From an uncultured Ruminococcus sp. (GTDB lineage: Bacteria; Bacillota; Clostridia; Oscillospirales; Ruminococcaceae): DNA of 57,465 nt. Position 1 is the stretch's first letter, and each line of letters opens with the position of its first letter. The translations under genes were made by a program, and so were the position numbers. The notes under the pieces were generated by a model that saw nothing but the letters and a program-made list of their open reading frames with translations, was not told the DNA's origin and searched no databases. Shown piece by piece: positions 8,875-37,475 of the stretch. The DNA lies in NCBI GenBank assembly GCA_902786965.1, contig CADAEJ010000008.1, positions 1-57,465 of the forward strand, written 5' to 3'.

Positions 8875-9567
8875 ATGGATAGGGAGATCATGATAAGCGC
8901 CAATGGCATAACAAAGACCTTTGGTACGGGCGAGGGCAAGGTAACGGCAGTCGATGATGTCAGCATCGAGATATACAAGGGCGAATTTGTTGCGGTGACG
9001 GGTGAATCGGGCAGCGGCAAATCAACGCTTCTCAACCTGCTGGGCGGTCTTGACAAGCCGTGCAAGGGCAGCATTACTGTCGGGGGCAGAGAGATAACAA
9101 AGCTCAAGGACTCAAAGCTTGCACAGTACAGGCGCAGGTACTCGGGATTTGTGTTTCAGTTTTACAATCTGATAAGTGTGCTGAATGTTGAGGAGAATCT
9201 TTCGCTGCCGCTTGACCTTGACGGCAGGAACACGGACAAGGCAAGGCTGGACGAGCTGCTGGAGATACTCAAACTGAGCGACAAAAGATACTGCTATGCC
9301 TCGCAGCTTTCGGGCGGTCAGCAGCAGCGCGTGGCTATCGGGAGGGCCGTTATCGCGCAGCCGCCGTGTATTTTTGCAGACGAGCCTACGGGCAACCTTG
9401 ACAGCGCAAATTCAAGGGAGATAGTTTCGCTGTTCAAGCGGCTCATCGAAAAGTACGGCACGACTATCGTGCTTGTTACGCACGATGCAAATGTCGCTGC
9501 CGAGGCAGACAGGGTGATAAGGATGTCTGACGGCAGGATAATCGACGAGAAGGTGATAAGGCTATGA
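8875..9567 (+). CDS. ABC transporter ATP-binding protein (MacB/BceA type)
   Basis: A 230-residue ATPase with Walker A GESGSGKST, Q-loop VFQFYNLI, signature LSGGQQQRVAIGRA, Walker [14 protein letters not shown] and switch His in LVTHD. The LSGGQQQR plus DEPTGNLD combination is typical of the LolD/MacB/BceA group that works with FtsX-like permeases. It follows GGAGGTG and its stop overlaps the permease ATG by four bases, so the two are translationally coupled. With the upstream two-component system it probably forms a peptide-detoxification or export module. Confidence 0.92.
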   Translation: MDREIMISANGITKTFGTGEGKVTAVDDVSIEIYKGEFVAVTGESGSGKSTLLNLLGGLDKPCKGSITVGGREITKLKDSKLAQYRRRYSGFVFQFYNLISVLNVEENLSLPLDLDGRNTDKARLDELLEILKLSDKRYCYASQLSGGQQQRVAIGRAVIAQPPCIFADEPTGNLDSANSREIVSLFKRLIEKYGTTIVLVTHDANVAAEADRVIRMSDGRIIDEKVIRL

Positions 9568-12500
9568 CAAGGCTTTTTCTTATCACTGTGCGGTGGATGA
9601 AAAAAGACCGCAAAAGAACGCTGCTGTCGTTTATCTCGGTGCTGCTGGCGGTCTATATGATGGCGGTGCTGGGCATTTATTTCAGCTCGGCTGTCAGTAT
9701 GCTGCGCTCAAAGGAAAGGTACGAAAACGGCGGGTATCACGTCAGGTTCCACTGCGATAACACTCAACAGGCGGAAAAGATAGCAGGCAATGCTGCTGTG
9801 CAGAGCAGTACATACGAGTTCCCCGCCGCTTACAAATTTCTAAATGACTATCTCAGCAGCTACGCTGAACTGTCAGACGGCGCTGAATGTTATTTGCCTG
9901 CGTTTTCGATCAACGGCAAGGCGCTTTCAAACATAGCTGAACTGTCACCATATTTTATAGCTCCGCAAGCGGACAAAGGATCAGGGAACGATGCCGGGCA
10001 GATGCTTGGCAATACCGACACGGATCTGCAAAGCGGAAGATACCCTCAAAAAGAGGGTGAGATCGTTATCAGCGAATGGCTCGCGCAGCAATACGGTCTG
10101 TCAGTCGGAAGCGAAGTTGTGCTGGAGTTCAGCATACGCAAGGGCGATATGGTCTATGCAGAGTACACCGTTGAAAAAGGTACTGATGAAAACGGGATAT
10201 ACTGCGAAAAGAAAAAGTATCTGACTGCCGATGATAAAGGCGCCCCTGCCGCTGTGCCCGACAAGGACGGCAGATTCCTCGGTGTGCTTAACAGGAAGCT
10301 GGAGGGCTTTCGTTCAAAAGAGATCAGCGCAGACACTCTTTCCTATACCGATCTATATATGGCGTTCTATCAGCTTTTCAGAGCGAGCGCAGATGAACCT
10401 CTTCTCAAATATGCAAAGGATAATAATACTTTCGGTGAGTACGGGTTCAGAGAAAACAACGAAGAAAGATATATCGAGGGAAAGATCGAGGGCAAGGGCG
10501 AGGTCATAAAATCGGTCGAATACCGTGCAAAGATAGTAGGGCTTTCGAGTCTGTATCAGGCGTACTTTTCGGTAAATGACAAGGCAGCAAAGGAGTTCTT
10601 TGAGCCAGAGAACGGTTTTATCTATGTGCGCATCAAGGAGGGATATGACGTTGATGACGAGACAGAGCAGCTAAAGAAAACTGTCGGTTTGCCCGATGAG
10701 TACCAAGATGAAAGCGGCGCTGCAAACCCTACTGCCGAGCTGCACGATATGCTGCTTTTCTACGAGGGCAGGAGCCTTTACGACCCCAATTCGTCTGACC
10801 CGATAATAATACTCGGCGTATTTGCGGTGATACTTGCGGTGTTTGTTTTCTTTGCAAGGCTTATAATCAACAACGCCTTTGAGCTGTCATCGGCATACAG
10901 GCTTTCGCAGTACAGCTCGCTAAAAACCGTGGGCGTTTCAAACGCGCAGATGTTTGTTATGGTGATGGGTGAATGTCTGCTTTATCTGACCGCTGCGCTG
11001 CCGATAGCTTTGCTGCTTGCGTTTGCAACGGGCAGAGTGATAATCTCAAAGATAACGGAGCTGAAAATATTTGATGCGCTGTACGGAAGCGGTGTGACGG
11101 ACAGGTTCTTCAAGCTTGAAATATCTGCGCCGATAATGATACTTATCGTTACCATTACGGTGTTCTCGGTGCTGCTGTCGGCTTACGCTGCGGCGATACG
11201 AATGAAAAAGATGCCTGCGGTACAGGCTCGTGCGGCGGACGGTACAAAGCCGCCAAGGGCTGTAAAACGCAAGTGGCTGTCAAAAAGGCTGTTCGGGTTC
11301 AGCGCGGGGTATGCGATAAGAAGCGCGTTCAGAAAGAAAATGCGGTTTTTTATCACGCTGCTTGCGGCTGTTGTCAGCGCGACGATGGTGATAACTATCG
11401 CGGCATTGATGTTTGCTGTGGAAAAATCGGGCAAGAAAATGTACGATGCTGATGCTATCGACTTTTCGGTAGAGATACAAAGCGATTTCACGGTCGGCTC
11501 AAACATATCGGACGATTACAAAAAGCTGTACGATTCGGGGCTTTTCAGAATTATAAATACTAACACGAGGTTTATCGACTGCTTTGACAAGCAGGGCAGC
11601 TGGGACAAAAGCTTTATCAGCGATAAGCTTAACAGAAGATATTTGGGTATAAGATTCGCAAGCATCACACAAGAGAAATTTAAAATGCTCAAGAGCGATA
11701 TCAGCTATGACGAGCTTGTGCAAAAGGGCGGAGTGCTGCTGTGCAGCAAGACATACAAGCTCGATGATAACTCTGAAAAATGGGTAGAGGACAGCGATGC
11801 GTTAAAGACAGTTCCGGACAAAATAACGATACAGCTTATCAGCGGCAAAAAGGAAAGCGGCGACCTGGAGACGGAGAATTTTTCGTTTGATGTCAGCGGT
11901 ACATACACGCTAAAGCCCAATGTAAATGAATACGGCTCCGACCACGATATTATTGCGGTAGTTCCTATGGAGAATTACTATAAGCTTTTTGAGCGTCTGG
12001 AGTTTACAGATGATGAGTCAATAATGACAAAATACACAAACCTTAATATTGCCTATCCGATGAGAAGGCTGTCGGTCGGGCTTGTTGCCAAGGACGGCAA
12101 GGTGAACGAGGCGGAGGAGTTTATCAAGGACACGTTCAAGGAAAGAGCATTTATCACAAACTACGTTTCGCAAAAGCAGACGCTTGAAAGGTCGGCAAAG
12201 GCTCTGCGTATAGCAGGTATGTCGCTTGCGGCGATAGTTTTTGCGGTGGCAATGATGAATATTGCTTCGACCTGCGCAGCAGAAATGGTCAACAGGCGGC
12301 GCGAGCTTTCAATGCTGCGTGCAGGCGGAATGTCGCTGCGGCAGATATTCAAGACGGTGCGGATAGAGGTGCTGCTGTGCTCGGGTGTTTCGACGGCGAT
12401 AAGCAGTCTGTTCGGCACGCTGGCTGCGTCGGTGATATTCAAGCTGATCGATGAAAATGCAAAGCCTGCGGCTCTGCCGTTTTCGGCAATAGCGGCGGTG

Positions 12501-12599
12501 TTCGTGCTGATGTACGCGGTCATGCTTTGCGCATATCTGCTGCCGCTGAAAAATATGTCAAGGACTTCTATTGCACAGGACATACGAATGAAAGAATAA
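9564..12599 (+). CDS. FtsX-family ABC transporter permease, large
   Basis: A 1011-residue permease. TM1 is near residues 18-40, a large extracytoplasmic domain covers about 45-410, and three TM segments follow (about 412-435, 468-490, 520-545). A basic cytoplasmic linker leads to TM5 (about 590-620), a second extracytoplasmic domain and three C-terminal TM segments, ending in ARTSIAQDI-like sequence (SRTSIAQDIRMKE). The two-lobed layout resembles Vex/LolE-type permeases rather than the about 650-residue BceB. It works with the ATPase upstream. A bidirectional terminator separates it from the opposing ATPase gene. Confidence 0.9.
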   Translation: MTRLFLITVRWMKKDRKRTLLSFISVLLAVYMMAVLGIYFSSAVSMLRSKERYENGGYHVRFHCDNTQQAEKIAGNAAVQSSTYEFPAAYKFLNDYLSSYAELSDGAECYLPAFSINGKALSNIAELSPYFIAPQADKGSGNDAGQMLGNTDTDLQSGRYPQKEGEIVISEWLAQQYGLSVGSEVVLEFSIRKGDMVYAEYTVEKGTDENGIYCEKKKYLTADDKGAPAAVPDKDGRFLGVLNRKLEGFRSKEISADTLSYTDLYMAFYQLFRASADEPLLKYAKDNNTFGEYGFRENNEERYIEGKIEGKGEVIKSVEYRAKIVGLSSLYQAYFSVNDKAAKEFFEPENGFIYVRIKEGYDVDDETEQLKKTVGLPDEYQDESGAANPTAELHDMLLFYEGRSLYDPNSSDPIIILGVFAVILAVFVFFARLIINNAFELSSAYRLSQYSSLKTVGVSNAQMFVMVMGECLLYLTAALPIALLLAFATGRVIISKITELKIFDALYGSGVTDRFFKLEISAPIMILIVTITVFSVLLSAYAAAIRMKKMPAVQARAADGTKPPRAVKRKWLSKRLFGFSAGYAIRSAFRKKMRFFITLLAAVVSATMVITIAALMFAVEKSGKKMYDADAIDFSVEIQSDFTVGSNISDDYKKLYDSGLFRIINTNTRFIDCFDKQGSWDKSFISDKLNRRYLGIRFASITQEKFKMLKSDISYDELVQKGGVLLCSKTYKLDDNSEKWVEDSDALKTVPDKITIQLISGKKESGDLETENFSFDVSGTYTLKPNVNEYGSDHDIIAVVPMENYYKLFERLEFTDDESIMTKYTNLNIAYPMRRLSVGLVAKDGKVNEAEEFIKDTFKERAFITNYVSQKQTLERSAKALRIAGMSLAAIVFAVAMMNIASTCAAEMVNRRRELSMLRAGGMSLRQIFKTVRIEVLLCSGVSTAISSLFGTLAASVIFKLIDENAKPAALPFSAIAAVFVLMYAVMLCAYLLPLKNMSRTSIAQDIRMKE

Positions 12600-12664: not shown

Positions 12665-13321
12665 TTATGCGCGTTTTACTTTTCCGTCGCTTATCTCGAT
12701 AGTGCGTGTGCACTGCGCGGCTATCTCGCTGTCGTGGGTGACGATGATGACGGTCTTGTTCTGCTCTTTATTGAGCTTTTTGAGCAGGTTCATTACCTCC
12801 TCGCCCGAGGCTTTATCGAGGTTGCCTGTCGGCTCGTCGCAGAGGATAACATCGGGGTCGTTTATCAGCGCACGGGCTATCGCTGCCCTTTGCTGCTGAC
12901 CGCCCGACATCTCAGACGGGTAATGCTTTACTCTATCGTTTATATCGAGTGCGGAATAGAGGTCGCTCTCGGCTGTTTCTTTTTTCTTGGCGAGCTTTGC
13001 GGGGAACATAACATTCTCCTCGGCGGTCAATTCGGGGATAAGGTCGAAAAACTGGAACACAAAGCCGATGTTCTTCAAGCGAAACTCGGAGAGCTTGGTA
13101 TCGTTCATCGTGCTCAAGTCTTTATCATCATAAAAAACCGTGCCATCGGTGGCTTTGTCAAGTCCGCCGAGCAGGTTGAGAAGCGTGCTTTTTCCGCTGC
13201 CCGACTTGCCGATTATGGCGACCATTTCGCCGTCCTTTATCGTTATATCAACGCCGTCAAGCGCTGTGACCTTGCCCTCGCCCTTGCCGTAGGTCTTGGT
13301 GAGATTCTGCGTTTTTATCAT
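12665..13321 (-). CDS. ABC transporter ATP-binding protein (MacB type), sigma-permease locus
   Basis: A 218-residue ATPase with Walker [11 protein letters not shown]-loop VFQFFDLI, signature [14 protein letters not shown], Walker [14 protein letters not shown] and switch His in IVTHD. Its ATG overlaps, as ATGA, the stop codon of the out-of-frame permease tail that ends at 13318. This shows that the sigma-permease gene upstream originally ran right up to this gene. It should energise that permease. Confidence 0.92.
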
Positions 13322-13470
13322 CTGCGTTTCCTCCCTTTGCTGATAGATGATGCTATGTCATCATTGAAGCGTCTCATATTAAGAAATGTAAGTGTCACTG
13401 TTATGACTGCAACTACGGTAAAAACCACAAGCAACGGCTTTGTGATGTTGACAGGGTGTGCTGTTTTTGA
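13318..13470 (-). pseudogene. Out-of-frame C-terminal tail of the sigma-permease gene
   Basis: In the -1 frame relative to the main reading frame, this stretch encodes a last transmembrane helix (ITKPLLVVFTVVAVITVT) and a basic tail ending in KGRKRR. That is the expected end of an FtsX permease. The TGA overlaps the ATPase start as ATGA. The shift maps to the five-A run on the minus strand (13464-13468): a one-base indel there would reunite the frames. It could be mutation, sequencing error or, less likely, programmed frameshifting. Confidence 0.8.
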
Positions 13471-16400
13471 TTAATATCCTCCGTGAATTCGATCACGCCT
13501 GCTTCGTTCGGAGCTGCAATCGAAACTACTTTATCATACATCGTATGAAGATGCTTTTGCAAGGCAATTACGGCGGTGCTTGCTAATAATGTTGAAAAAA
13601 GAGGTATACGAAGATTGCTTATGAATAGTTGTCTGCGGATCCTTGAACGAGATGTGCCAACGGCACGCATTATGGATATCTCATATTCTTTCAGCATTAT
13701 CTTCAACCCTATTCCATTAAAGTATGCTGCAAATCCGAGGATAGCCATAAATACTATAAGCAGAATAACACTTCCAAGGCTCGATGCTTTTTCGAGGAAA
13801 CGCTTGTGTTTCAGTTCGGAGAGTGACATTTTATCCATATTTGCTGACGGTGGGATAAGTCCTCCGTCAATATGGCAGTCGCTGAACATTTCTGTATATT
13901 TTGCACCAGGTAAGCCAATTGTCTGTGCGCCTTGCTGAGTTGTCATAAGGTAATAGTCTCTGTTTCCCGACAGCACATGGGAGAGCAGTCTGTTTGTTGT
14001 GTCGCCGCTTACTTTGACGACTGCTCCGATTTTTATCTTTGCTGATGATACAGACTTGATACCGTAGCTTTCATTGAACTCTGCTGCCGCAATATTCAGT
14101 TCTTCCTGCACTTTGAATCTGTCAGTGTCAAAGGATACAAGAGCTATCACTTCTTTTCCGCTGTTCAATGCATCAATGTCGATCTTTCCCGATATAACAG
14201 AGCTTTCGAGCGATTTTAATACCTGTTCATTGACAAGCTTTGTGGTTACAGAATAAAGATGCTTAGATCCGATATTTCCGTTTTTGAAGAAATCCCTGCA
14301 TTCTTTATTTGATATCTTTGATATGTCTTTGAGTGATTCATCAACTATTATACTTGATCCGAGGTTTCCGTTTTCTTTATCACTATATAGAAATGTTCCG
14401 GTTATTTCGCCTGCTGCTGTGACATTTCCAAGTTTGTTTACGGTATCGTCATCAAGTCCTGATGAGTAATCAGGCTGCATAAGCGGTATCCCGTTTGATT
14501 CATCTCCAATTATAATGGGATTTGGCTTTTGACAGCAATAATACTCCTCTATACCGTCCTGCTCCATATTAAGTTCGCCTGCAATATCATACGAAGCAGG
14601 CGGCTCATATGTAAGATAATTCATAAATGCTTTCCCATCACTTGAATAATAGATGTACCCAAGCATAGAGCCCAAAATTATGAGAGTAAGTGAAATTGTC
14701 TGGATAAATGTTATTATCTTGCAGCTGAGAGATGTGTTTATCATTGAGCGAGCTGTCTTTTTTTGCAGACCAAAGATACGTCGATGTTCTCTAATTGCCG
14801 AAAGAACAATGCATACAAGATAGGACACCGCCATAACAGCAGCCGAGAATAACGCCGCAATGACAAACGGATCATATGTGCTATTTGTTATTAGTCTGTC
14901 GCTTGTGAATGCGGAATAGTCCGCATATTCCAGAGCATTTACCTGAAACTTATGCAGAATCGTATAGAACAATATGCCTGCACCAAACCCAACGATAGTC
15001 TGAATAACGATAAACAAAAGACATTCTGTAGTGTATAGCACATAAGTTTTTCTTTTGGAAACACCTATCCTGCGGAGGATCTCAAATGTATTTCTGCGTT
15101 GTGCAAAAATGATCCGCAAAATGCTGAACACTGAAAGCACAGCGATCACAGCAGCGATAGACAACAGTATCATCAGCCAGCGAGTGTCTTCACTCGTACC
15201 CTTGCTTTCTGTTATTTTTGCAGCATTGGGATCATTATTGTTCAACTGAAATGACCACATTGAATTCTCTGCCCCGAATTCTTCTGAGACAAGTTCTGTA
15301 AAATCATTTATCGGCATCCCAAAGACAGTTGTATTTTCGTCTTCGCCTTTGACAACACCGCTGAACATTGTGATTGTGTAAAGAGTCTTAGGTGCATTTG
15401 CCGGTTTGCCAATGTAAATCAGTGGAATCGGAGTAGGCGATACAACTCCGTTTTGCAAAGCGTCGTTGTTGATCTGTGATGCGATACGGTTATCATATTC
15501 CTCATTGATTATTCCTTTGAGAGTATACTCCTTTCCGCCAATACGGATAGTATCTCCAACAGTTCCGTTATATCCCGCTTGCTTGAGCACTCCGATAGAT
15601 ACAGCTGCTTCATTTTCCTTTTCCGGAAGATGTCCGCTTTTGAACGGTATATGTGCAAGTTCTATACTGTTCTCAGCATAGCCGTAAGCAAAGTTGTTTC
15701 CGTATATATCAATATCTCCGAGAACATTTATGACTTCTGTTTTTTCGGGTTGCTTTCGCTCTGTCAGGTCATTTAGAAAGCTATCATCTGCATTTATAAG
15801 CATAACATCATACTGCCCATAAATGTCATAAATAGCGTGACGCTGCCTGTTTGCTTCTCCTCTTACCTGTAAAAACGCACAGCACACAACAGCACACAGC
15901 AGCACACCCGAAAAAAGCAGTGCGGCGAGGCTCTTTTTGTGTTTGCTCCAATATTTGAAGGTAAAGCGGGTAAGCTCTTTTGCGGTGCCGCCGCTTAACT
16001 TGCTCAAGGTCACGGGGACTGCGGCTGCTGCACCAAGTGCTGCTGCCGTTGCTGCTGCGCCCGATAAAAGCCCTGCATTTTCGAGGTTTGCAAGCACAGC
16101 GCTCAATGGCACGGCGGAGAAAAGCGAGCCTTTGCCGATGAGCTTTTCGATCTTGCTGCGCAGCTTTTTACGGGCTGTATGGAGCTTCTGGGCGGCATTG
16201 TTCTTATTCGTGCCGATGACCTTGGCGACCTCGGCGAGCGAGAGATCATCGTAGTAGTAAAGGATTATCACCGCGCGCATATCGGGCGGCAGGGAGTCGA
16301 TAACGGCCTGAAGCTGCTGCTTGGTCTGGGTGTTGACGGCATAGTCATCGGGGAGGAATACAGGCTCGGAGAGCGCGGCAAGCTCGGCTGCGCCGTCGAT

Positions 16401-16688
16401 ACATCTGCGGTCTGTGGCGGTCTTTTTATTATAGTCTGCGCACTTGTGGTAGGCGATACAGTAAAGCCAGCCGACAAAGGACTCGTTTGAATGCAGCTCG
16501 CTAATATGCTCCATTGCCGAGCAAAAGGTCTCGGCGGTGATATCCTCGGCTGCATCGGGTGCGCTGACATTTTGCTTTACAAAGTAATAGAGCTTTTGGT
16601 AAAACTCCTTATACAGCTTTTCAAACGCCGTTTTGCTGCCCTGCTTTGCCTTTTCCGCAAGCTCGGTCACATCATTGTTGTTCATCAT
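13413..16688 (-). CDS. ECF RNA polymerase sigma factor fused to FtsX-type ABC permease
   Basis: One uninterrupted frame of 1091 codons. Residues about 21-92 are sigma region 2 (AFEKLYKEFYQKLYYFV, then VGWLYCIAYHKCADY). Residues about 130-183 are region 4 (SLPPDMRAVIILYYYDDLS, AEVAKVIGTNKNNAAQKL). An Ala-rich hydrophobic segment (205-228) follows, then at about 237 the typical FtsX permease start (LTRFTFKYWSKHKKS) with TM1, a large extracytoplasmic domain, TM pairs and a second extracytoplasmic domain. The permease start matches that of the 32.7-35.6 kb permease. Start 16688 follows GAGGAG by seven bases. The last 17 or so residues are non-native because of the frameshift at 13464-13468. Inference: a transporter that carries its own transcription factor. 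Confidence 0.85.
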   Translation of the reverse strand: MMNNNDVTELAEKAKQGSKTAFEKLYKEFYQKLYYFVKQNVSAPDAAEDITAETFCSAMEHISELHSNESFVGWLYCIAYHKCADYNKKTATDRRCIDGAAELAALSEPVFLPDDYAVNTQTKQQLQAVIDSLPPDMRAVIILYYYDDLSLAEVAKVIGTNKNNAAQKLHTARKKLRSKIEKLIGKGSLFSAVPLSAVLANLENAGLLSGAAATAAALGAAAAVPVTLSKLSGGTAKELTRFTFKYWSKHKKSLAALLFSGVLLCAVVCCAFLQVRGEANRQRHAIYDIYGQYDVMLINADDSFLNDLTERKQPEKTEVINVLGDIDIYGNNFAYGYAENSIELAHIPFKSGHLPEKENEAAVSIGVLKQAGYNGTVGDTIRIGGKEYTLKGIINEEYDNRIASQINNDALQNGVVSPTPIPLIYIGKPANAPKTLYTITMFSGVVKGEDENTTVFGMPINDFTELVSEEFGAENSMWSFQLNNNDPNAAKITESKGTSEDTRWLMILLSIAAVIAVLSVFSILRIIFAQRRNTFEILRRIGVSKRKTYVLYTTECLLFIVIQTIVGFGAGILFYTILHKFQVNALEYADYSAFTSDRLITNSTYDPFVIAALFSAAVMAVSYLVCIVLSAIREHRRIFGLQKKTARSMINTSLSCKIITFIQTISLTLIILGSMLGYIYYSSDGKAFMNYLTYEPPASYDIAGELNMEQDGIEEYYCCQKPNPIIIGDESNGIPLMQPDYSSGLDDDTVNKLGNVTAAGEITGTFLYSDKENGNLGSSIIVDESLKDISKISNKECRDFFKNGNIGSKHLYSVTTKLVNEQVLKSLESSVISGKIDIDALNSGKEVIALVSFDTDRFKVQEELNIAAAEFNESYGIKSVSSAKIKIGAVVKVSGDTTNRLLSHVLSGNRDYYLMTTQQGAQTIGLPGAKYTEMFSDCHIDGGLIPPSANMDKMSLSELKHKRFLEKASSLGSVILLIVFMAILGFAAYFNGIGLKIMLKEYEISIMRAVGTSRSRIRRQLFISNLRIPLFSTLLASTAVIALQKHLHTMYDKVVSIAAPNEAGVIEFTEDINQKQHTLSTSQSRCLWFLP

Positions 16689-16812
16689 TTTGTGTCTCCT
16701 CGTTTTTTGAAAATACCCTTTCGTAGATGCGCGCCTCACGTTCAGCGTCACCCGAATCGGTGTCAAGCTGTGTCAGAAGCCAGACTATGAAGCTGTCCAG
16801 ATCCATTTGCAT
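16672..16812 (-). CDS. Small protein overlapping the sigma start (46 aa)
   Basis: ATG 16812 follows AAAGGGG by six bases; the product begins MQMDLDSFIVWLLTQL and has an acidic, polar C-terminus. It overlaps the sigma-permease start by 17 bases, so translation of the two is likely coupled. Small ORFs occupy the same position before the sigma genes at 27.6 kb and 37.3 kb (both with NELIK near the N-terminus). This one is the most divergent of the three. Function unknown; an anti-sigma or chaperone-like partner is possible, with no motif to support a choice. Confidence 0.55.
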   Translation of the reverse strand: MQMDLDSFIVWLLTQLDTDSGDAEREARIYERVFSKNEETQNDEQQ

Positions 16813-16965
16813 AGCATACCCCTTTCATCAGAACTATCTGAATACATAGACTGAAAACGGGCGCTATGATTAGTGGTTTGCGGGCATTTTCTGCGTAATG
16901 CACAAACGGGTATCGCCCCTTTTGTGCAGGATAGACATTGTGTTTTCTCGATTGTCGGTATAGCA

Positions 16966-17176: not shown

Positions 17177-20100
17177 ATGGGTAAAAAAGCATTGGCACTG
17201 CTTATCGCTATGCTGACGGTCGGTCAGAGCTTTGCGATGTCTTGCAGTGCGGCATTTGACCGTGCGCAGCAGACGGATACCTCGCAAAGCGCTGCATCAG
17301 ACGGCACGGGAACATTTGAGCTGCGCATAACGCAGGACGAGCTGCAGCGCGCTGCGCAAAACACCTCTCTGCAATCTGTTAAGCAGCCTGCGATCAACGC
17401 GCCAAAGGTGGATACAAAGGAGCTGACAAAGGGCTACAGTGTGGACTCGCAGAAGTTTGATCTGCGTGATGTGAACGGCAAAAGCTACTCAACACCTGTA
17501 CGCTCACAGGCACCATTCGGCACCTGCTGGAGCTTTGCGACTGTTGCGGCTATCGAATCGAGCATACTCGGCGCAGGGCTGAACGGCGCGGACGGAAAGC
17601 CTGCAACGGCTGATACGCTCAACCTTTCGGAAAAGCAGCTGGCGTGGTTCTCGGCGAGGGCGCTCAATGACCCAAGCAGCCCGCAGAACGGCGAAGGACA
17701 GTTCGTGCCCGATTTTATGAACAACACCGAAAGCCTTACTGAGTTTATGAACAGAGGCGGAAATGCGATGTTCTCCACCTGCGCACTTGCACAGGGCATC
17801 GGACCGAGCCACGAGAGCAGCAACAAGTTCTTTGAGTACCACGGCAAGGAGTCTACGGTCGTTTCAAGGTGGATGGACGGCTCGCTGCAAAAATATTCAT
17901 ACAGCGAGGCTGACGACTGGACGATACCTGATGAGTACCGCTTTGAAAGTGATTACTCGATAAAGGAGACACATACTCTTCCCGAGACACATTATATTGA
18001 CGAGAACGGATACTATACTTATAAAGAGGAGGGCACAAAGGCTATCAAGCAGGAGCTGCTGAACCTTCGCGCTGTTCAGATATCCTTCCAGGCGGATTCA
18101 TCAATGCCGGGCGATAACTCGGACGGACGGTACATAAGCGATAACTGGGCGCACTACACATATATCCCGACACTTACCAACCATGCGGTAACTATCATCG
18201 GCTGGGACGACAACTACTCAAAGGACAACTTCATCAAGGGCAGCATGACGATGAAGATGCGTGACGGCAAGGAGGTCGTTTTGGACAAGCAGCCGCCTGC
18301 AAACGGTGCATGGCTCGTAAAGAACAGCTGGGGCAGCGGCGACAATGAGTTCCCCGACAAGGGCGGAGCTTCGTGGGGCGTTGAGGAAAACGGCGTTCAC
18401 ACGGGATATTTCTGGCTCTCGTATTACGATAAGTCAATGTCATCACCTGTAAGCTATGTTGTTGAGCAAAGCAATGAGGAAGTCAACGGTATAGACCAGC
18501 ACGACTATATGCCTACTGCCCTGCCGACAGCGGCTAAATTCGATGACGAGGTAAAGATGGCAAACAAGTTTGGGGTAGCGCATGATGAGGTGCTCAAACA
18601 GGTATCTTGCTTTACGGTCTACCCCAACACAGAGGTGACTTACGATGTGTATCTGCTTGATGAGTCATCAGACAAGCCGACAGACGGCATCAAGGTCGCT
18701 GAAAAGAATATAAAGTATGAGTACAGCGGATTCCACAAGGAAGACCTGAAGGATTTTGATATTTATTTTGACGTCAGCGGAAACGGCTCGAATGATTTTA
18801 TGCTGACAAAGTATCAGGGCTACTCTATCGTTGTTACACAAAAGACCGAGGACGGAAAGTATGTTATGAACCTGCCGAGCGAAAACAACTCCGAACAGGG
18901 ACAGACATCGTTCAAGGGTATCATCAACATGGGTGAGAGCTATCTTCTCAAGGACGGCGAATGGAGCGATTACAAGGACCTGGACGAGCTTCAGAAAGAG
19001 GAGTACACTAAAAATGTTCTCGGCAGCGAGGACAATCTGAGTACAGTGAATTTTGATAATTTCCCGATCAAGGGATATGTTCAGAGACTTGGCACCGACA
19101 CAATTTTTGAGCTTAAAAACAACAATGTGCTTTATGCCGGCACGAAGACGCACAACAGCACGACTCTCAGATTCCTGCTGCACACTGCTATGGACAGGAT
19201 ACCAAAGATCACACAAGAAAATGTGAAGTGGGGTATTCTCCCGTGCGATGAGGACGAGGTCTACCACGAGGGCGAGGCAGGACCCGACCCGACGACCTAT
19301 AAGATCACCTGCAAGGATGGTGTAGACAAAAAATCAAGGATATACTTCACCGTTAAGGGCATAGGCACGTATTCGACAAGGGCACTTGTCACAAAGGCAA
19401 TCTTTAACAATATTGATTTTCCGTATGACGGAAGGACGGATATAAGAGTCTTCCCTTACACGGGCGAGGAGATAAAGCCTTGTACGGGCGTTTCGGGCGA
19501 AAGTATGCCTGAACCGCTTGTTGAGGGCGAAGATTTTGAGCTTATTTACAGCAACAACATCAAGTGCGGTCTTGCATTTGTAACTGCAAAGGCAAAGGGC
19601 AACAAGGTCAGCATCAGCTATGAGCCGAGGGAATCATTTGTTATAGTTCCCGCTAAACCCGAAATAAAGAGCGTTAAGGCTGACGGAACACGGTTGATCG
19701 TTGAGATCGGCGACCAGAGCGAGAGCTGCCCATCGGGCTACCGCGTACAGTACCGTGTAAAGGGTGAAAAGGACTGGAAGGAATCCTTGACGACAGGTGC
19801 AGGTACGACGCTTATCGCTCACGGTGTACAGGGTGAAAAGACCTATGAGGTACAGGTAAGCGGCTACACGAAGGTCCGCGATGACCAGGAATGGTATTTT
19901 GACCGTATGAACTACGGCGAGGCAAGCGACATTGCTGTTGTTGATACTGCAAAGATCGGTGAGATACTGCGCATAGCGGGCAGCAGCCGTTTTACTACCG
20001 CAGCAAAGATCTCGGCAGTCAGCTGCGCATCTGCGGAAACTGTCATACTTGCAAACGGTATGAATTATGCTGATGCACTTGCAGGTGTACCTCTTGCGTA

Positions 20101-20887
20101 CAAGTTCAATGCTCCTATCCTTCTTACAGGAAACGGCGCTCTTAACAAGGATACATTTGACGAGATAAAAAGGCTCAAGGCAAAGAACGTGATAATACTC
20201 GGCGGCGAGGGTGCTGTCAGCAAGGAGGCAGAGGACGAGTTGAAAGGTGCAGGTCTTGCGGTTGAGAGGATCGCAGGAAGCTCACGTTTCTCGACTGCGG
20301 CAGCTATTGCTGAAAAGCTCGGCAGCGCACCGGAAGAGATCTTCTTTGTATACGGTCTTGATTACGCAGATGCGCTTTCAGTAAGCTCTGTGGCAGCTAT
20401 CAGGAAGGCTCCTGTGATCTATCTGAACAAAGACGGTGAGATGAACGCTGAAACGGCGAAGTATCTTGAGTCGCTCAAAGAGCTTGAGTGCGTAAAGAAT
20501 GCCTATGTTATCGGCGGCAGCGGTGTGATATCAGATGATATGATGCAAAAGGCAGCTACTGCGCTGGGCATTGAGCAGATAGACAGGATCAGCGGTGCAA
20601 ACAGATATGAGACCTGCGTGGCGGTAAACGAGAAGTTTGCTGATGATCTCACGGGGGATATGATCTGTGCGGCAACGGGCAAGGATTTCCCTGATGCGCT
20701 TGCAGGCGGCGTTTACGCGGCACTGAACAAGGCTCCGATGCTGCTTGTATCGGACAGTCTGAACCAGGCGCAGAAGCAATTCATAAAGGCTAAAAATGCA
20801 GGCAGCGTTACGGTATTCGGCGGCACAGGCGCGGTATCGGACGAAGCTGCAAAGCAGATAGCACAGGCAAAGCAGGCTGCTGAATGA
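17177..20887 (+). CDS. Secreted papain-like (C1) cysteine protease with cell-wall-binding type 2 repeats
   Basis: A 1236-residue exported protein. A signal peptide occupies about residues 1-27. The C1 peptidase domain (about 95-440) shows the oxyanion Gln and catalytic Cys in RSQAPFGTCWSFA, the His in LTNHAVTIIGWDD, and the Asn in WLVKNSWGSG. A lectin-like/beta region follows, then a fibronectin-III-like stretch around 830-920. The C-terminal 310 residues hold three cell-wall-binding type 2 repeats beginning RIAGSSRFTTA, RIAGSSRFSTA and RISGANRYETC. Such repeats anchor proteins to wall polymers, so the enzyme acts at the cell surface. It is monocistronic. The natural substrate is not predictable. 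Confidence 0.92.
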   Translation: MGKKALALLIAMLTVGQSFAMSCSAAFDRAQQTDTSQSAASDGTGTFELRITQDELQRAAQNTSLQSVKQPAINAPKVDTKELTKGYSVDSQKFDLRDVNGKSYSTPVRSQAPFGTCWSFATVAAIESSILGAGLNGADGKPATADTLNLSEKQLAWFSARALNDPSSPQNGEGQFVPDFMNNTESLTEFMNRGGNAMFSTCALAQGIGPSHESSNKFFEYHGKESTVVSRWMDGSLQKYSYSEADDWTIPDEYRFESDYSIKETHTLPETHYIDENGYYTYKEEGTKAIKQELLNLRAVQISFQADSSMPGDNSDGRYISDNWAHYTYIPTLTNHAVTIIGWDDNYSKDNFIKGSMTMKMRDGKEVVLDKQPPANGAWLVKNSWGSGDNEFPDKGGASWGVEENGVHTGYFWLSYYDKSMSSPVSYVVEQSNEEVNGIDQHDYMPTALPTAAKFDDEVKMANKFGVAHDEVLKQVSCFTVYPNTEVTYDVYLLDESSDKPTDGIKVAEKNIKYEYSGFHKEDLKDFDIYFDVSGNGSNDFMLTKYQGYSIVVTQKTEDGKYVMNLPSENNSEQGQTSFKGIINMGESYLLKDGEWSDYKDLDELQKEEYTKNVLGSEDNLSTVNFDNFPIKGYVQRLGTDTIFELKNNNVLYAGTKTHNSTTLRFLLHTAMDRIPKITQENVKWGILPCDEDEVYHEGEAGPDPTTYKITCKDGVDKKSRIYFTVKGIGTYSTRALVTKAIFNNIDFPYDGRTDIRVFPYTGEEIKPCTGVSGESMPEPLVEGEDFELIYSNNIKCGLAFVTAKAKGNKVSISYEPRESFVIVPAKPEIKSVKADGTRLIVEIGDQSESCPSGYRVQYRVKGEKDWKESLTTGAGTTLIAHGVQGEKTYEVQVSGYTKVRDDQEWYFDRMNYGEASDIAVVDTAKIGEILRIAGSSRFTTAAKISAVSCASAETVILANGMNYADALAGVPLAYKFNAPILLTGNGALNKDTFDEIKRLKAKNVIILGGEGAVSKEAEDELKGAGLAVERIAGSSRFSTAAAIAEKLGSAPEEIFFVYGLDYADALSVSSVAAIRKAPVIYLNKDGEMNAETAKYLESLKELECVKNAYVIGGSGVISDDMMQKAATALGIEQIDRISGANRYETCVAVNEKFADDLTGDMICAATGKDFPDALAGGVYAALNKAPMLLVSDSLNQAQKQFIKAKNAGSVTVFGGTGAVSDEAAKQIAQAKQAAE

Positions 20888-31981: not shown

Positions 31982-32662
31982 CTATGGGTATTGTGCCTGA
32001 ACTATTGCGCCGTCCTCGATGCGAACGATGCGGTCTGCGCCGCTTGCTATGCATTCATCGTGGGTGACGATAACAACTGTTTTTTCATATTTCTTATTCA
32101 CCTCGTGCAAGAGCGAGATAACTTCCTCGCCTGTTTTCTTGTCGAGGTTGCCTGTCGGTTCGTCACACAGCACTATCTGCGGATCGTTGGCGAGGGCTCT
32201 TGCTATCGCACATCTCTGCTGCTGACCGCCCGAAAGCTCGGACGGCAGGTGACCTTTTCTATCCGAAAGTCCGAGTATATCGCAAAGCTCGTCGATGTAA
32301 GCATTATCGGGACGTTTGCCCGACAGAAGCACGGGGACGATTATGTTCTCCGTGACTGTCAGCTCGGGGATAAGGCAGAATTTCTGGAACACAAAGCCGA
32401 TGTTTTCACGGCGAATTTTTGCGAGCTTTTTGTCCTTGGTCGCGGTGACTTTGGTATCGCCGATGTATACATCTCCCGAGGTGGCTTTATCAAGGCAGCC
32501 AAGCATATGCAAAAGCGTTGATTTGCCGCTGCCGCTTGTGCCGCAGATAGCGGTGAAAGAGCCTTTTTCGATTTCAAGGTCAACGCCTTTGAGTGCATCG
32601 ACGGTCTGTGTGCCCATTTTGTATTGCTTGGTAAGCCCGACGGTTTTTATCTGAATATCCAT
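31982..32662 (-). CDS. ABC transporter ATP-binding protein (MacB type)
   Basis: A 226-residue ATPase: Walker A GTSGSGKST, Q-loop VFQKFCLI, signature LSGGQQQRCAIARAL, Walker [14 protein letters not shown], switch His in IVTHD. It lies ten bases after the FtsX permease and should power it. It is the last gene of the small ORF / sigma / permease / ATPase operon of 31.98-37.5 kb. Confidence 0.92.
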   Translation of the reverse strand: MDIQIKTVGLTKQYKMGTQTVDALKGVDLEIEKGSFTAICGTSGSGKSTLLHMLGCLDKATSGDVYIGDTKVTATKDKKLAKIRRENIGFVFQKFCLIPELTVTENIIVPVLLSGKRPDNAYIDELCDILGLSDRKGHLPSELSGGQQQRCAIARALANDPQIVLCDEPTGNLDKKTGEEVISLLHEVNKKYEKTVVIVTHDECIASGADRIVRIEDGAIVQAQYP

Positions 32663-32672
32663 TTATGCCTCC

Positions 32673-35606
32673 TTAAAAGCTTGACTTTTCAATTTCATCT
32701 ACGATAGACTGCTTGCGGATAAAGCGTATCTGCGGCAGGGTGACGAGCAGTATCATCACAAGATAGAGCGCAAAGATCACAGCTATCGTGCGCACAAGGT
32801 GATAGTCATACAGGTTTTGAAAATATGGTATATGATCTGTCCACTCGTGGTCTTCGTGGTTCCAAATCTCTGAGCGGAACATTCGCAATACATAGTCAAA
32901 AAGCTTCTGGCACACAGCAACGGGGATCATCGAAAGTGCTGCGCCAACTATCGGGTAGATGATATTCTGCCGCCATATCATAAACAGTATCTGCCGAGTT
33001 GACATACCGCAGGCACGCAGCATTGCGAATTTGCCCGAGCGCATACGAATATCGGTGTACAGGCTTATGGCTATCATCACGGCGGCGATGAGGGTGAGAA
33101 TTATCATCATACAGTAGTAGACAGACATTATTTTATGACTTCCACGGTCCATATTTGCGCTGATCTCGGCGGTCGAGCTTGTGCCCATACCTCTTGCGCC
33201 CGACATTGTGCTGTACCAGTATTCATCGGCTTTTGCGATGTATGACTCGTCCTTGACCTTCATACTGACCTGCGTGAGATTTCGGTCGGGAAGCCCCCAG
33301 GCTTTGAAGGAATCAAGCGAGCAGAACACGTTAAGACCGTAGTTTCCGCTTGCGGCAAAGGTCATATACCTTTTTGCCTCGTCGCTGTCAAGGACAAGTA
33401 TCGCACCGACCTTGACGGGCAGATCCTTGCGCCTGCCGACTGCGTAAGAGGTCAGCGGGACGATGTTTCCGCTTTCGGACGGGACATTCTTTTTATAGAC
33501 AGGCTCGCCCAGCTTTGACGGGTCGGGCTTGTCAAAGTCAAGGCTCTCCTCGGTGTCATTAAGCCGGATATCCGAAAGGGGCAGAGTGTCGCCGACATCG
33601 AAAAGACCAAGGTATTTATCCTTGCTTGTCTTTGTCATTACCAGCAGCACCTCGCTGCCGTCACGCAGCTTGTCAAGGTTTATCTCGCCGCGCTCGGTGT
33701 ACTGCCGCAGCTTTTCAAATTCTTCGTCAAAAAACGCGACGCTCGGGCAGGAGCAGATAAGATCGGTCTTGTCATAGCCTATTCTCTCAACGGCAGCGTC
33801 CTCCGCCTCTTTAAGCGCTCGGTCAAGTTTGCCTGCGGCGGAAGGGTCAACATCGGTGTGAGCACGAACATCATAGTCTTCAAGTGCGCTCAAGGCTTTT
33901 TTATCAAGCGAGCCTTGTGCAAAAGTCAGCCTTGTTGAACGGTTGACCGCTCTGCCGTAGATATCCTTGACAAAGCTTTGATCTTTGAGCTGCTTATAGG
34001 CGCTTTGGCTCACGCCGTTATCATGGTGGTTTTCAATATTGAAAATGTACATTCCGCCGCTGCCCGAACGCTCGGCATTGTAGTCCCAATAGGCAAGACC
34101 GCTTTGCTCTTTCTGCCATTTCAGCTCGTTGTTCTCCTTGTCGGTGAGGGCGCAGAAGTAGGTATACCCGAACAGCGCCACTCCCATAACAAGCACGCTG
34201 ACCACGGCTATACGCACGTTGTGCAGCTTTATGCGGCGTATGAGCAGCCGCTTCCAGCTGCGGTATCTGCCCGCAGGCTTTGCTTTTGCGTGCCTGCGTG
34301 TGCGCACTTTCTGCGGTGCAAAAAGCTGTATCGGTGTTTTGCTGTTGACGCTGCACGCGGCATGGAAAACGGCAAGCTCGACACATATCAGCACGGCGGC
34401 AGAGGACAGGATGAACGGGTCATATGTCACCTCGGTTACATATTTATGTACTGTAAATCCGTATTGCAGCTTGAGGTCGTACAGGCGGTCAAGCAGGTCA
34501 ATCATACCGATATGCGCAAGGCTTCCAAGTCCCAGTCCTATGGCTATACCAGCAAGCGCTGTCAGCGTGAAATCACAGAAGATGTAAAGCTTCAGCGAGG
34601 TTTGCCCAAGTCCAAGGCTGCGCAGCACGGCGAAGTTTTCCTGCTTATCCTGTATGATGTTTTTCGTAATGCCGATGACCGACATGATGACGATGATGAA
34701 GATGATGACGGTGAGCAAGGGCATAAGTATCTGTGAATAAAAATCCTTTACGGTGTCATCGTTCTCAACGGCATCGCTTACGGTCGAAAACCTTGTTTCA
34801 GCGCCGATCCTGTCTGCGCCGAGGATATGCATATAGGTCACCACTCTGCCGCTTGCATTACTGCTCCACACCATTGTATCTTCGGCATATTCCAGCACCC
34901 TGCTGTAAAGATCGTTTTTGACCGTCTGCTTTGTCAGGTCGGTCTGTATGAATGCAGAAACAAGCTCGCTTTTGAAGATGTCATTCTGCGAGATATGAAA
35001 GTAAACGCTTGGCATATCGTATTCTTTTTCAGCGTAGGGATATCTGTACCAGCCGCCTGCGGATGATGGATCTTTCTCCTCAAATACACCGCATAGAGTG
35101 TACTGCTTATCGGCAAGATGTTTTCCGTCTGCGGAAAAAAGTGATATGCTCACCTTTGCGCCAGGGTATGGGGCGATGCCAAAGCCCTTTGCGGTCGAAA
35201 CGTCCATAGCGACCTCGTCAGCTTTTTCGGGGTAACGTCCGCGCGTGCAGGTCATATGGTAAATATCCTGTGCCTGGTTGTCCTCAAACGCGGCGGCATT
35301 GAATTTTGCACCGCCTGCATTCTGCACATATCCAAGCTCAAATTGCAGTCCTGCTTTCTCGACCGTTTCATCCTGCCTGATCCTTTCGGCAGTTTTCAGG
35401 GAGATGTTGTGGGCGGCATTATCATAGTTGCCAAGCAGACGCAGCTCCTCCTCGAACACGGCTTGCTTTTCACTGCGCACCAAAAGCGCCGTGCAGCAGA
35501 GCGCACCCACGCCAAGCACCAGCGTCAGCATAAGCGTGAACAAGCGCCGTTTGTGGTGCAGCCAGTATTTGAATGACATTTTTGTGAGCAGTTTTATCAT
35601 TTTCAT
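32673..35606 (-). CDS. FtsX-family ABC transporter permease
   Basis: A 977-residue permease. The N-terminus MKMIKLLTKMSFKYWLHHKR precedes TM1, a large extracytoplasmic domain (about 50-290), three TM segments, a basic linker, TM5, a second extracytoplasmic domain (about 500-830) and three TM segments ending QIRFIRKQSIVDEI. ATG 35606 is preferred because AAAGGG is eight bases upstream; GTG 35615 overlaps the sigma stop. Its start closely resembles the segment where the permease begins in the sigma-permease fusion at 15.97 kb (TRFTFKYWSKHKK), so the two loci are paralogous. Confidence 0.92.
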   Translation of the reverse strand: MKMIKLLTKMSFKYWLHHKRRLFTLMLTLVLGVGALCCTALLVRSEKQAVFEEELRLLGNYDNAAHNISLKTAERIRQDETVEKAGLQFELGYVQNAGGAKFNAAAFEDNQAQDIYHMTCTRGRYPEKADEVAMDVSTAKGFGIAPYPGAKVSISLFSADGKHLADKQYTLCGVFEEKDPSSAGGWYRYPYAEKEYDMPSVYFHISQNDIFKSELVSAFIQTDLTKQTVKNDLYSRVLEYAEDTMVWSSNASGRVVTYMHILGADRIGAETRFSTVSDAVENDDTVKDFYSQILMPLLTVIIFIIVIMSVIGITKNIIQDKQENFAVLRSLGLGQTSLKLYIFCDFTLTALAGIAIGLGLGSLAHIGMIDLLDRLYDLKLQYGFTVHKYVTEVTYDPFILSSAAVLICVELAVFHAACSVNSKTPIQLFAPQKVRTRRHAKAKPAGRYRSWKRLLIRRIKLHNVRIAVVSVLVMGVALFGYTYFCALTDKENNELKWQKEQSGLAYWDYNAERSGSGGMYIFNIENHHDNGVSQSAYKQLKDQSFVKDIYGRAVNRSTRLTFAQGSLDKKALSALEDYDVRAHTDVDPSAAGKLDRALKEAEDAAVERIGYDKTDLICSCPSVAFFDEEFEKLRQYTERGEINLDKLRDGSEVLLVMTKTSKDKYLGLFDVGDTLPLSDIRLNDTEESLDFDKPDPSKLGEPVYKKNVPSESGNIVPLTSYAVGRRKDLPVKVGAILVLDSDEAKRYMTFAASGNYGLNVFCSLDSFKAWGLPDRNLTQVSMKVKDESYIAKADEYWYSTMSGARGMGTSSTAEISANMDRGSHKIMSVYYCMMIILTLIAAVMIAISLYTDIRMRSGKFAMLRACGMSTRQILFMIWRQNIIYPIVGAALSMIPVAVCQKLFDYVLRMFRSEIWNHEDHEWTDHIPYFQNLYDYHLVRTIAVIFALYLVMILLVTLPQIRFIRKQSIVDEIEKSSF

Positions 35607-35611
35607 ATATC

Positions 35612-37348
35612 TCACCCTTTCCCCTGCGGCGCTCTTGCGTTTGAGATATCAAGTGTGATACTGATGCTGCGATCGGCTGTTTTGCCGCAAGCCTCGTTTT
35701 TCAGCTTGAAGCTTATTTTTATATTCACTCTGCTGCAATCGCTTGGGATAGCTGTTATACCGATCCTTGCGCTGTTTGCCTGCTGCGAGGGGGTGCGGTT
35801 CACATCAAATCTGATGCAGTATTTTTCTGTGCTGCCTGTTGTATGTTTTTCGCCGTTGACAGACATCGGACAGGGTATGCTTTTACCTGTTTCGTTTTGC
35901 AGCACGCTGACCTCAAAATACATACCGTCAGTATCCTGCAAAATGTTTATATCGGGGAAAAGGGTCATATCTATCTTGTCAGTCCCGTTGTATCGGGCGT
36001 TAAGATCAATGTCCTCTGCGGTGAATGACTGCGCGGTGTTACCGTTTGTCTGCTTATGCAGATAAAAAAGCTTTTGCGCTGCAAGGTCGGCAGATTTGAT
36101 ACGATGGGAGCGCATATCGTCAAGAATAAAGCGCCCCTGCTCGGGGTCGGTATACTCGATACAGATGAACTTATCCGAGTTTGCCTTGGGAAGATACAGT
36201 CTGTACACCGAATGACGATGCGTTTGCTTATCGCTCGTGCAGTACAGCTTTACCTGCATATCAAGGTCTTTATAGAAGTGTGTCATACAGGTCTGCCCTG
36301 CCTCGCTGTCGGTATCTTTGAGGGTGATCTTCCAGTTTTTGCGGTCTGAAAGCAGCAGCTGTGAAAGTCCGTAGTCATACATCTGCCCCTGCTCGATGTC
36401 TTCGTGATCGGTGTCAACAAGCAGCTCGGGCTTTGATGAACTGACGGTCTGCACAAGGAGCTGCGCATCGGGACTGGTTTCAAAACGGTAGTCAAAGCTT
36501 TTGCCTTTGAGCCTTTCAAGCAGATCTGCTGCCTCCTGCGAATTTGGATCGGTCTGCGAAACTATCGTGTTTTGCGGTCGGTAGTCGCCGCAGCTGTCAA
36601 AGTCATGCAGAGCTATCGGCACACCAAGCGCGAGCGCTGCGGACACGCCCACGGCTGCGAGCCTTACGGAAAAGCCTGCTGCGGCGACCGATGCGGTGCC
36701 TGTGCTGACTGCGGCACGGCTGCTTTCAAACGCGGCATTTATTACTGCTCCAATAGGAACGGCGCACAGCGCACTTGTGTTTTTGCTGAGCTTTTTAAGC
36801 TTTGAGGCAAGCTTTTTGCGGGCTGCATACAGTCGCTGTTTTGCGGTATTCTCTTTGAGACCCAGTGCCTTTGCGACCTCGGCTACGCTTAACTGCTCAA
36901 AATAATACATTATTATTGCGCTGCGTGTTTCGGGCTTGAGGCTGTCTATTGCCTCGCGCAGCAGCTGCTTTGTTTCCTCGTTTTCAATATAGTCGCTCGG
37001 TATCATTACAGGCTCGCTCAATGCGGCATTTTCAACTGTGCGGTCTAATTCTTCACAGCTGTCAAAGTGTGCTTTTTCACTCTCGGAGTTCAGATAGTCC
37101 GTACACTTGCGGTATGCTATGGAGTACAGCCACGAGCCGAATGACTCGGGACAATGCAGGTCAGAAAGCTTTTCGATAGCGGTCAGAAAGGTGTCGGAAA
37201 CGATGTCTTCTGATGCAGCTTGTGATGACACATTTTTGCGCACAAAGAACCATATGCGGCCGCGGTACTGACGGTAAAGCTTTTCTATCGCTTCCTTATC
37301 CCCTGTTTGCGCCGCTTTGACTGTCCCGGCAAGCTCGGTCTTCTTCAT
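35612..37348 (-). CDS. Membrane-anchored ECF sigma factor with C-terminal extracytoplasmic domain
   Basis: 578 residues. Region 2 spans about 13-85 (AIEKLYRQYRGRIWFFV, SEDIVSDTFLTAIEKL, GSWLYSIAYRKCTDYL). Region 4 spans about 127-183 (KPETRSAIIMYYFEQLS, ALGLKENTAKQRLYAARKKL). A TM helix is at about 224-247, then about 330 extracytoplasmic residues. The conserved connector VPIGAVINAAFES matches VPLGAVMNAAFES in the 26-27.6 kb paralogue. ATG 37348 follows GGGGAG by about nine bases. The permease gene begins right after it. Inference: a one-protein transmembrane signalling sigma factor whose outer domain senses something handled by the transporter. Confidence 0.9.
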   Translation of the reverse strand: MKKTELAGTVKAAQTGDKEAIEKLYRQYRGRIWFFVRKNVSSQAASEDIVSDTFLTAIEKLSDLHCPESFGSWLYSIAYRKCTDYLNSESEKAHFDSCEELDRTVENAALSEPVMIPSDYIENEETKQLLREAIDSLKPETRSAIIMYYFEQLSVAEVAKALGLKENTAKQRLYAARKKLASKLKKLSKNTSALCAVPIGAVINAAFESSRAAVSTGTASVAAAGFSVRLAAVGVSAALALGVPIALHDFDSCGDYRPQNTIVSQTDPNSQEAADLLERLKGKSFDYRFETSPDAQLLVQTVSSSKPELLVDTDHEDIEQGQMYDYGLSQLLLSDRKNWKITLKDTDSEAGQTCMTHFYKDLDMQVKLYCTSDKQTHRHSVYRLYLPKANSDKFICIEYTDPEQGRFILDDMRSHRIKSADLAAQKLFYLHKQTNGNTAQSFTAEDIDLNARYNGTDKIDMTLFPDINILQDTDGMYFEVSVLQNETGKSIPCPMSVNGEKHTTGSTEKYCIRFDVNRTPSQQANSARIGITAIPSDCSRVNIKISFKLKNEACGKTADRSISITLDISNARAPQGKG

Positions 37349-37475
37349 CGCTCTCACTCCCCTTTCCGATGGTTTTCATAACTTTTTTGTCTACCTTTTC
37401 AAGTCCGCAGGATTCTTGCAGGCAGCGTTTGTACATCTGTGCAAGTATGTTTTTTATAAGCTCGTTCAGTTCCAT
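37296..37475 (-). CDS. Small protein overlapping the sigma start (59 aa)
   Basis: The product begins MELNELIKNILAQMYKRC and contains VDKKVMKTI; it is clearly related to the 56-residue protein at 27.57-27.74 kb. It overlaps the sigma start by 53 bases. It lies directly downstream of the candidate ECF promoter. No metal ligands or membrane segment are seen. Conserved order and overlap make it a real gene of unknown role, perhaps a cytosolic partner of the sigma domain. Confidence 0.75.
   Translation of the reverse strand: MELNELIKNILAQMYKRCLQESCGLEKVDKKVMKTIGKGSESDEEDRACRDSQSGANRG

Follow-up and report, generated by a model that had tools for sequence, protein, structure and literature searches.

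A predicted ECF sigma factor and FtsX-type ABC permease encoded as one polypeptide in Ruminococcus-like bacteria

In most cases, a distinct anti-sigma protein holds an extracytoplasmic function (ECF) sigma factor. Here we describe a single open reading frame (ORF) of 1091 amino acids (aa) in which a predicted ECF sigma factor continues into a predicted FtsX-type ATP-binding cassette (ABC) permease. It lies on contig CADAEJ010000008.1 of an uncultured Ruminococcus sp., of which we analyzed a stretch of 57,465 nucleotides (nt), hereafter the window. IutY (ECF243) of Pseudomonas putida is similar in that an ECF sigma factor and a membrane-bound C-terminal extension form one polypeptide whose output is tied to an outside signal, but its extension is the anti-sigma factor of a cell-surface signaling system and not a multi-span ABC permease. 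According to the section of PMC8999054 devoted to it (3.5.3), this membrane-extended sigma factor is proteolytically activated and released by Prc and RseP, which has been demonstrated, whereas a comparable release of the fused sigma factor is our proposal. In ECF48, ECF52, and ECF53 (SCO4117, Streptomyces), the C-terminal extension includes one or two membrane helices, and the non-fused sigma relatives in the window's genus resemble them in layout; the ECF48, ECF52, and ECF53 proteins carry a zinc-finger domain and no transporter. The anti-sigma domain of IutY-like hybrids is of the FecR type. In the extension of the fusion, Pfam gave no match at E 0.01 to an anti-sigma domain of this type or of the zinc-finger kind.

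On the transporter side, type VII ABC complexes relay ATP-driven motion across the membrane without moving a substrate through a pore, as described in the part of PMC12646458 that covers them. LolCDE, MacAB, and YbbAP resemble the fusion in their FtsX domains, the outside domain between transmembrane helices (TM) 1 and 2, and a LolD/YbbA-like ATPase; as presented in that part, they carry no transcription factor, whereas the fusion carries a sigma factor. The Bce-type members form a complex with a kinase (BceAB-BceS; PMC10314905, relevant part), in which a type VII transporter controls the activity of a signaling partner, as proposed for the fusion. That partner is a separate histidine kinase, whereas the fusion has its sigma factor in the same chain, and BceAB-type permeases have 10 membrane helices by the same part of PMC12646458, compared with eight expected for the fusion.

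Among the open PubMed Central (PMC) titles and openings of abstracts listed, we found no fusion of a sigma factor to FtsX or another permease; a mention within the ECF re-classification is possible. The words transporter and permease are absent from the portion of the review PMC8103513 that was available, and the available portion of PMC8999054 mentions ABC transporters just as neighbors of group ECF257.

Domain layout of the fusion

The sequence-only reading of the window had claimed that one frame joins sigma regions 2 and 4 to an FtsX permease. The ORF list, Pfam, and NCBIfam bear out this claim in both coordinates and parts, as listed here for the minus strand:

13413..16688 (-): sigma-permease fusion ORF, 1091 aa, start ATG at 16688 (ORF list, Pfam, NCBIfam)
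16422..16616 (-): predicted sigma region 2, residues 25-89 (PF04542; predicted local distance difference test, pLDDT, 91-98 over residues 1-90)
16161..16319 (-): predicted sigma region 4, residues 124-176 (PF08281; pLDDT 82-96 over residues 121-180)
15981..16142 (-): linker (residues 183-236); an AVPxSAVL.NL-like motif is conserved in it, and residues 206-229 form its Ala-rich segment (alignment of 12 fusions, insertion energy, pLDDT below 50 at 206-229)
15861..15929 (-): predicted permease TM1, residues 254-276, after the Lys/Arg-rich helix 235-249 (insertion energy, model)
15180..15860 (-): predicted extracytoplasmic domain 1, residues 277-503 (assigned from its place between TM1 and TM2; model, Foldseek)
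14802..15179 (-): FtsX domain 1, TM2-TM4, residues 504-629 (PF02687 at 506-630; membrane segments)
13779..14645 (-): predicted extracytoplasmic domain 2, residues 682-970, after TM5 (659-681) (model, membrane segments)
13560..13778 (-): FtsX domain 2, TM6-TM7, residues 971-1043 (Pfam, membrane segments)
12665..13321 (-): LolD/MacB-like ATPase that presumably serves the permease (Pfam, NCBIfam; downstream of 12/12 fusions)

Sigma regions 2 (Sigma70_r2) and 4 (Sigma70_r4_2) exceeded their curated cut-offs and sigma70-ECF (TIGR02937) scored 93.4 bits against a cut-off of 42.9, while sigma region 3 had no match in the curated-family search. This profile places the N-terminus among predicted ECF sigma factors. 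FtsX matched in two stretches (51.3 bits, cut-off 25.5), which together with the large domain between TM1 and TM2 classifies the remainder as a predicted type VII ABC permease. That the sigma factor has lost its own extracytoplasmic domain in the fusion, as had been read from the sequence, we judge to be right.

Structure prediction is consistent with these assignments. A first AlphaFold model of the whole 1091 aa, built from 17 sequences, was of modest quality (mean pLDDT 65, predicted template-modeling score 0.51), with the linker and sigma region 4 poorly resolved; a second model of residues 1-300 from 43 sequences was better. Foldseek searches matched the type VII permeases YbbAP (best, E 2e-14), MacB, LolE, and BceAB as well as the ECF sigma factors SigW, RpoE, and SigH; for the first model the template-modeling scores were low.

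The claim of a full FtsX permease needs trimming. Both extracytoplasmic and both FtsX domains are present, but the window copy has a frame change near 13.46 kb, beyond which its final membrane helix and a tail ending in SISKGRKRR continue in another frame:

13318..13470 (-): C-terminal tail in a frame other than that of the ORF, carrying the last membrane helix as judged by inspection; start approximate (comparison with relatives)

The window copy therefore has seven membrane helices in frame, by insertion energy, and one out of frame, by inspection, and lacks a complete C-terminal membrane helix. In all 11 relatives the tail is retained in frame and ends the fusion.

Distribution, selection, and permease exchange

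The fusion recurs, contrary to the refuting condition named beforehand, that no other genome would carry it. Together with the window copy, 11 further full-length loci bring the total to 12, in nine genomes and three genera of one family, with two loci each in genomes G010, G016, and G199. Besides the window's genome, which was among those listed, a scan of 150 genomes found full-length fusions in four others of the genus. By genus, 5 of 29 genomes carry it (G000, G008, G009, G010, G016), and in a family sample 6 of 396 (G000, G016, G157, G199, G333, G365). In samples of the order (394 genomes, threshold 1e-40), class (391, 1e-25), and phylum (398, 1e-25), no fusion turned up but that of the window. 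There is overlap between these samples and the family, and among the samples themselves, at most two candidates per genome were scored (in the family sample as well), and a fusion to an unrelated permease could escape such searches; the rarity and the family restriction are therefore estimates. Plasmid and phage records (25 and one) matched the fusion query, none over more than 80% of it, and among the matches listed (20 of the 25 plasmid records and the phage) coverage was 13-17%, within the sigma part. Long sigma proteins in G029 and G131 (L054, L055) were considered as further fusions and rejected, since they carry C-terminal leucine-rich repeats and a lipase domain instead. Loci L067 and L072 hold broken fusion remnants: the permease is truncated, sigma region 4 is gone, and little or nothing of the linker is left.

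We considered whether two genes had been fused by an assembly or annotation artefact. The window genome is spread over 125 contigs, and the eight fusion loci found in named records all come from uncultured organisms (Ruminococcus, Clostridia, or Clostridiales), six of the eight records being titled as metagenome-assembled genomes. Against this stand 12 loci in three genera, two of them, in G199, on one 3.56-Mb contig, and a window permease that is mostly just 34-67% identical in DNA to the permeases of the other fusions. The existence of 11 further loci, two of them on that contig, excludes chance or a local assembly error, and we regard an artefact as refuted in practice. The fusion is real, conserved, and restricted to the family in the genomes sampled.

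A LolD/MacB-type ATPase gene follows all 12 fusions, two of these genes being cut by contig ends, and in the 11 relatives its start overlaps the fusion stop by 4 nt. Ratios of non-synonymous to synonymous substitution (dN/dS) were calculated for seven pairs: the sigma part was measurable in five (0.10-0.15), the linker in six (0.06-0.37), and the permease in five (0.11-0.25), one of these being a comparison with the sigma-less G457. The remaining comparisons were saturated or lacked the part concerned, and the window permease gave no value in both its pairs. All three parts, wherever a ratio was obtained, are under purifying selection. Stand-alone permeases start at the linker end (MKTLLYVTFKYW versus GGTAKELTRFTFKYW). 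An internal start yielding a free permease was ruled out, as no Shine-Dalgarno-like motif precedes any in-frame ATG, GTG, or TTG in the 12 linkers.

The two halves differ in their history. When the window is compared with G009 in 75-nt steps, DNA identity is 67-96% between about 16.9 and 15.85 kb, a stretch that takes in the dyad, small ORF, sigma, linker, and TM1. It drops to 19-68% in the permease and returns to 77% at the tail and to 76-97% in the ATPase gene. The sigma-linker part has a GC content of 0.54, the permease one of 0.41. G009C3 and G016C71 show the reverse pattern, with similar permeases and different sigma parts, and in the two G010 copies a linker that is 99-100% identical sits between diverged halves. 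The permease tree conflicts with the sigma tree. These patterns indicate that the permease has been exchanged behind a constant sigma-linker-TM1 block, and hence that the halves stay joined while the permease changes.

Concerning its origin, ECF sigma proteins in which a long C-terminal extension follows an Ala-rich, anchor-like segment are numerous in the genus (343-833 aa in the set read; in other genera, as much as 1132 aa); that these extensions lie outside the cell is a prediction. The motif VGVPxxL of their anchor segment is recognizable as AVPVTL in the fusion linker, so the fused sigma factor probably descends from such an extension-bearing protein. In the sigma tree, the fused sigma factors are separate from those of an unfused operon described below, and three non-fused ones (G406, L066, L068) fall among them. 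A single origin of the fusion does not follow, given these three and the at least five changes that the fused permeases require on the permease tree. Beside a phosphofructokinase gene, G016 carries a fusion (L047), while the matching site in the window's genome (L057, C1:108000-122000) holds a permease of the unfused type that lacks a sigma part and is divided between two ORFs.

The C-terminal frame change is either a mutation or an assembly error; a base error in the assembly would give the same picture. There is a fair argument, which we place a little below even chances, that the window copy is a decaying allele of a fusion that functions elsewhere, its last membrane helix being out of frame. 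The change lies near the 3' end of the swapped segment, and G020 holds a broken remnant at the same site, beside a protease that is 96% identical to the window's neighbor. On the other hand, more than 1050 codons upstream of the change stay open, and the sigma block compared with G009 has a dN/dS of 0.12.

Linker topology and proposed control of the sigma factor

FtsX permeases were expected to begin in the cytosol, and the sequence-only reading had worried that a membrane-spanning Ala-rich segment would misplace the sigma domain. The worry was valid; it is eased by the following results but not settled. We computed insertion energies of +1.2 to +1.9 for the Ala-rich segment in 12/12 fusions, compared with a median of 0.19 in 45 non-fused relatives (Mann-Whitney p 2e-5, the rows not being independent), although 6/45 of these relatives score above +1.1. 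TM1 scores -1.5 to -3.7. The linker value is supportive only, since for the segment presumed to be TM7 of the window protein the energy is +1.1. Structure prediction across the linker, proposed as a check, gave a divided answer. In the second model, pLDDT falls from 91-98 in sigma region 2 and 82-96 in sigma region 4 to below 50 at 206-229; there is no helix before 224, then a short helix from 224 and a helix at 235-249 that leads to TM1. In the first model, which is the poorer one, residues 215-231 form a helix, with pLDDT of about 30. Lys/Arg-rich stretches before TM1 and in the expected cytosolic loops, noted by inspection, fit a cytosolic N-terminus. On the simplest view, the linker would be cytosolic and flexible.

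We favor, at slightly better than even confidence, a type VII ABC complex with a sigma factor tethered to the cytosolic N-terminus of its own permease, so that the state of the transporter controls the sigma factor in cis. A permease of the LolCDE/MacB/YbbAP/BceAB kind would pair with the LolD-like ATPase from the next gene, its two outside domains would sense or bind something at the cell surface, and the mechanical work of the ATP-driven conformational cycle would be relayed to the sigma factor. At rest, the linker would hold the sigma factor at the membrane, perhaps helped by a small overlapping protein. Upon a signal, it would be freed for RNA polymerase, most likely through cleavage of the Ala-rich linker as in IutY; less likely, it would act while still tethered. 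Sensing, holding, and release by the transporter are all inferred. A Peptidase_M50 protein (site-2 protease family) is encoded in the window's own genome and in all 14 control genomes, and because of the latter its presence is permissive only.

Membrane-bound action on transcription has precedents in CadC and ToxR. The sigma factor might accordingly never be released and recruit RNA polymerase at the membrane, with the transporter state exposing or hiding sigma regions 2 and 4. About 70 residues between sigma region 4 and TM1, partly disordered in the model, could reach DNA near the membrane. We consider this unlikely, as the Ala-rich linker resembles in place and motif the anchor segment of the membrane sigma relatives, and IutY, the sole membrane-extended ECF sigma factor studied in this way according to the available part of PMC8999054, is activated by proteolysis.

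Release by cleavage could also be constitutive, and here a second conserved element comes in:

16672..16812 (-): conserved small ORF of 46 aa that shares 17 nt with the start of the fusion (conservation across fusion loci)

Such an ORF overlaps the fusion start by 8-20 nt in 12/12 fusions (aligned part 43-48 codons; start codon uncertain in G010C5, G016C71, G157, and G365). When upstream DNA was shuffled by mononucleotide, an overlapping ORF of at least 40 aa arose in 509 of 6000 trials. Eight pairs were compared for the proportions of non-synonymous (pN) and synonymous (pS) differences. In five, pN was 0.00-0.07 (pS 0.04-0.66); G199a and G333 are nearly identical, and among the window, G009, G010C33, and G016C61 the same pN range goes with a pS of 0.30-0.66. 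Three more distant pairs gave a pN of 0.19-0.41 and a pS of 0.54-0.58. By position alone, homology not being tested, a similar ORF abuts or overlaps the start of 31/45 distinct non-fused sigma genes and precedes 0/6 sigma genes of the unfused permease operon (counted by hand, with three duplicate rows and the window fusion dropped). Pfam gave no match to the window peptide, and one paralogue had a sub-threshold match to YqzH. The small ORF could encode a partner of the fusion, which makes the earlier statement that the system works without a separate anti-sigma protein unsafe.

With such a partner, the fusion might be a polyprotein that just sets the sigma:permease ratio, is cleaved constitutively, and leaves control of the sigma factor to the small protein. 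The presence of the small ORF at every fusion, its pN and pS values, and its counterparts before non-fused sigma genes speak for this alternative, but the linker is under purifying selection in the six pairs measured, and we think it quite improbable.

Several points weigh against control of a tethered sigma factor by the transporter. By the insertion energies, the linker may still enter the membrane, and the helix at 215-231 of the first model counts against a non-membrane linker. G009:C10 and G457 hold close relatives of the permease that lack a sigma part, so the permease can dispense with the sigma factor. The fusion is rare in the genus and in the family sample. G020 and G381 retain just broken remnants and the window copy has the frame change, so the locus is often damaged. 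Neither a promoter target nor a signal was identified, nor was a cleavage site, for which no search was made. The following dyad was a candidate for a regulon mark of the fused sigma factor:

16889..16928 (.): dyad TGCACAAA-N14-TTTGTGCA, putative operator or promoter, genus-wide (upstream of the fusion)

It was rejected in that role, as it occurs in 29/29 genus genomes with or without the fusion (8-53 places each, control 0-2). The window's own genome has it at 18 places with up to two mismatches, compared with one in a reversed control. Within the window it also lies at 31806-31835 and 52448-52477, and at several of 15 loci read it stands upstream of genes for secreted-looking proteins or lipoproteins.

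The unfused operon and wider meaning

A second locus in the window provides a comparison:

35612..37357 (-): separate sigma factor with C-terminal extension (Pfam, sigma tree)
32673..35615 (-): separate FtsX permease, 4-nt overlap with the sigma gene (Pfam)
31982..32662 (-): ATPase of the separate-gene operon (Pfam, NCBIfam)

It had been called paralogous to the fusion. Sigma factor and permease are indeed separate adjacent genes there, but the two permeases are just distant relatives (21.5% identity). The window, G008, G009, and G012 have the whole operon, G016 has it with a shortened permease, and in G010 the permease between sigma factor and ATPase is missing. A sigma factor and an FtsX permease thus appear to have been coupled twice, as overlapping genes and as a fusion, with sigma factors of separate clades. 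Another sigma gene with a C-terminal extension, at 25952-27622 (-), groups with the unfused-operon sigma factors on the tree, and no permease gene adjoins it among the ORFs listed. Closer to the fusion, a second ABC pair (an ATPase and a 1011-aa FtsX permease, 8875-12599, +) is convergent with the fusion operon, and a papain-like protease with CWB2 repeats (17177-20887, +), the one that is 96% identical in G020, is divergent from it.

The small ORF at all 12 loci, the permease swap behind sigma-linker-TM1, and the C-terminal frame change go beyond what had been read from the window at first. More tentatively, and with clearly less than even confidence, we suggest that the fusion is a modular sensing cassette of Ruminococcus-like bacteria, which would turn an outside signal into promoter choice within one polypeptide and whose sensor half is exchanged by recombination behind a constant sigma block. 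The permease swaps are natural chimeras for testing the coupling between outside domain, ATPase, and sigma factor, and the unfused sigma-permease operon in the window is a built-in comparison. If the proposed control is true, a signal felt by the transporter could alter gene expression directly, and a sigma factor built into a transporter would be, to our knowledge, the shortest route from the state of an ABC transporter to transcription.

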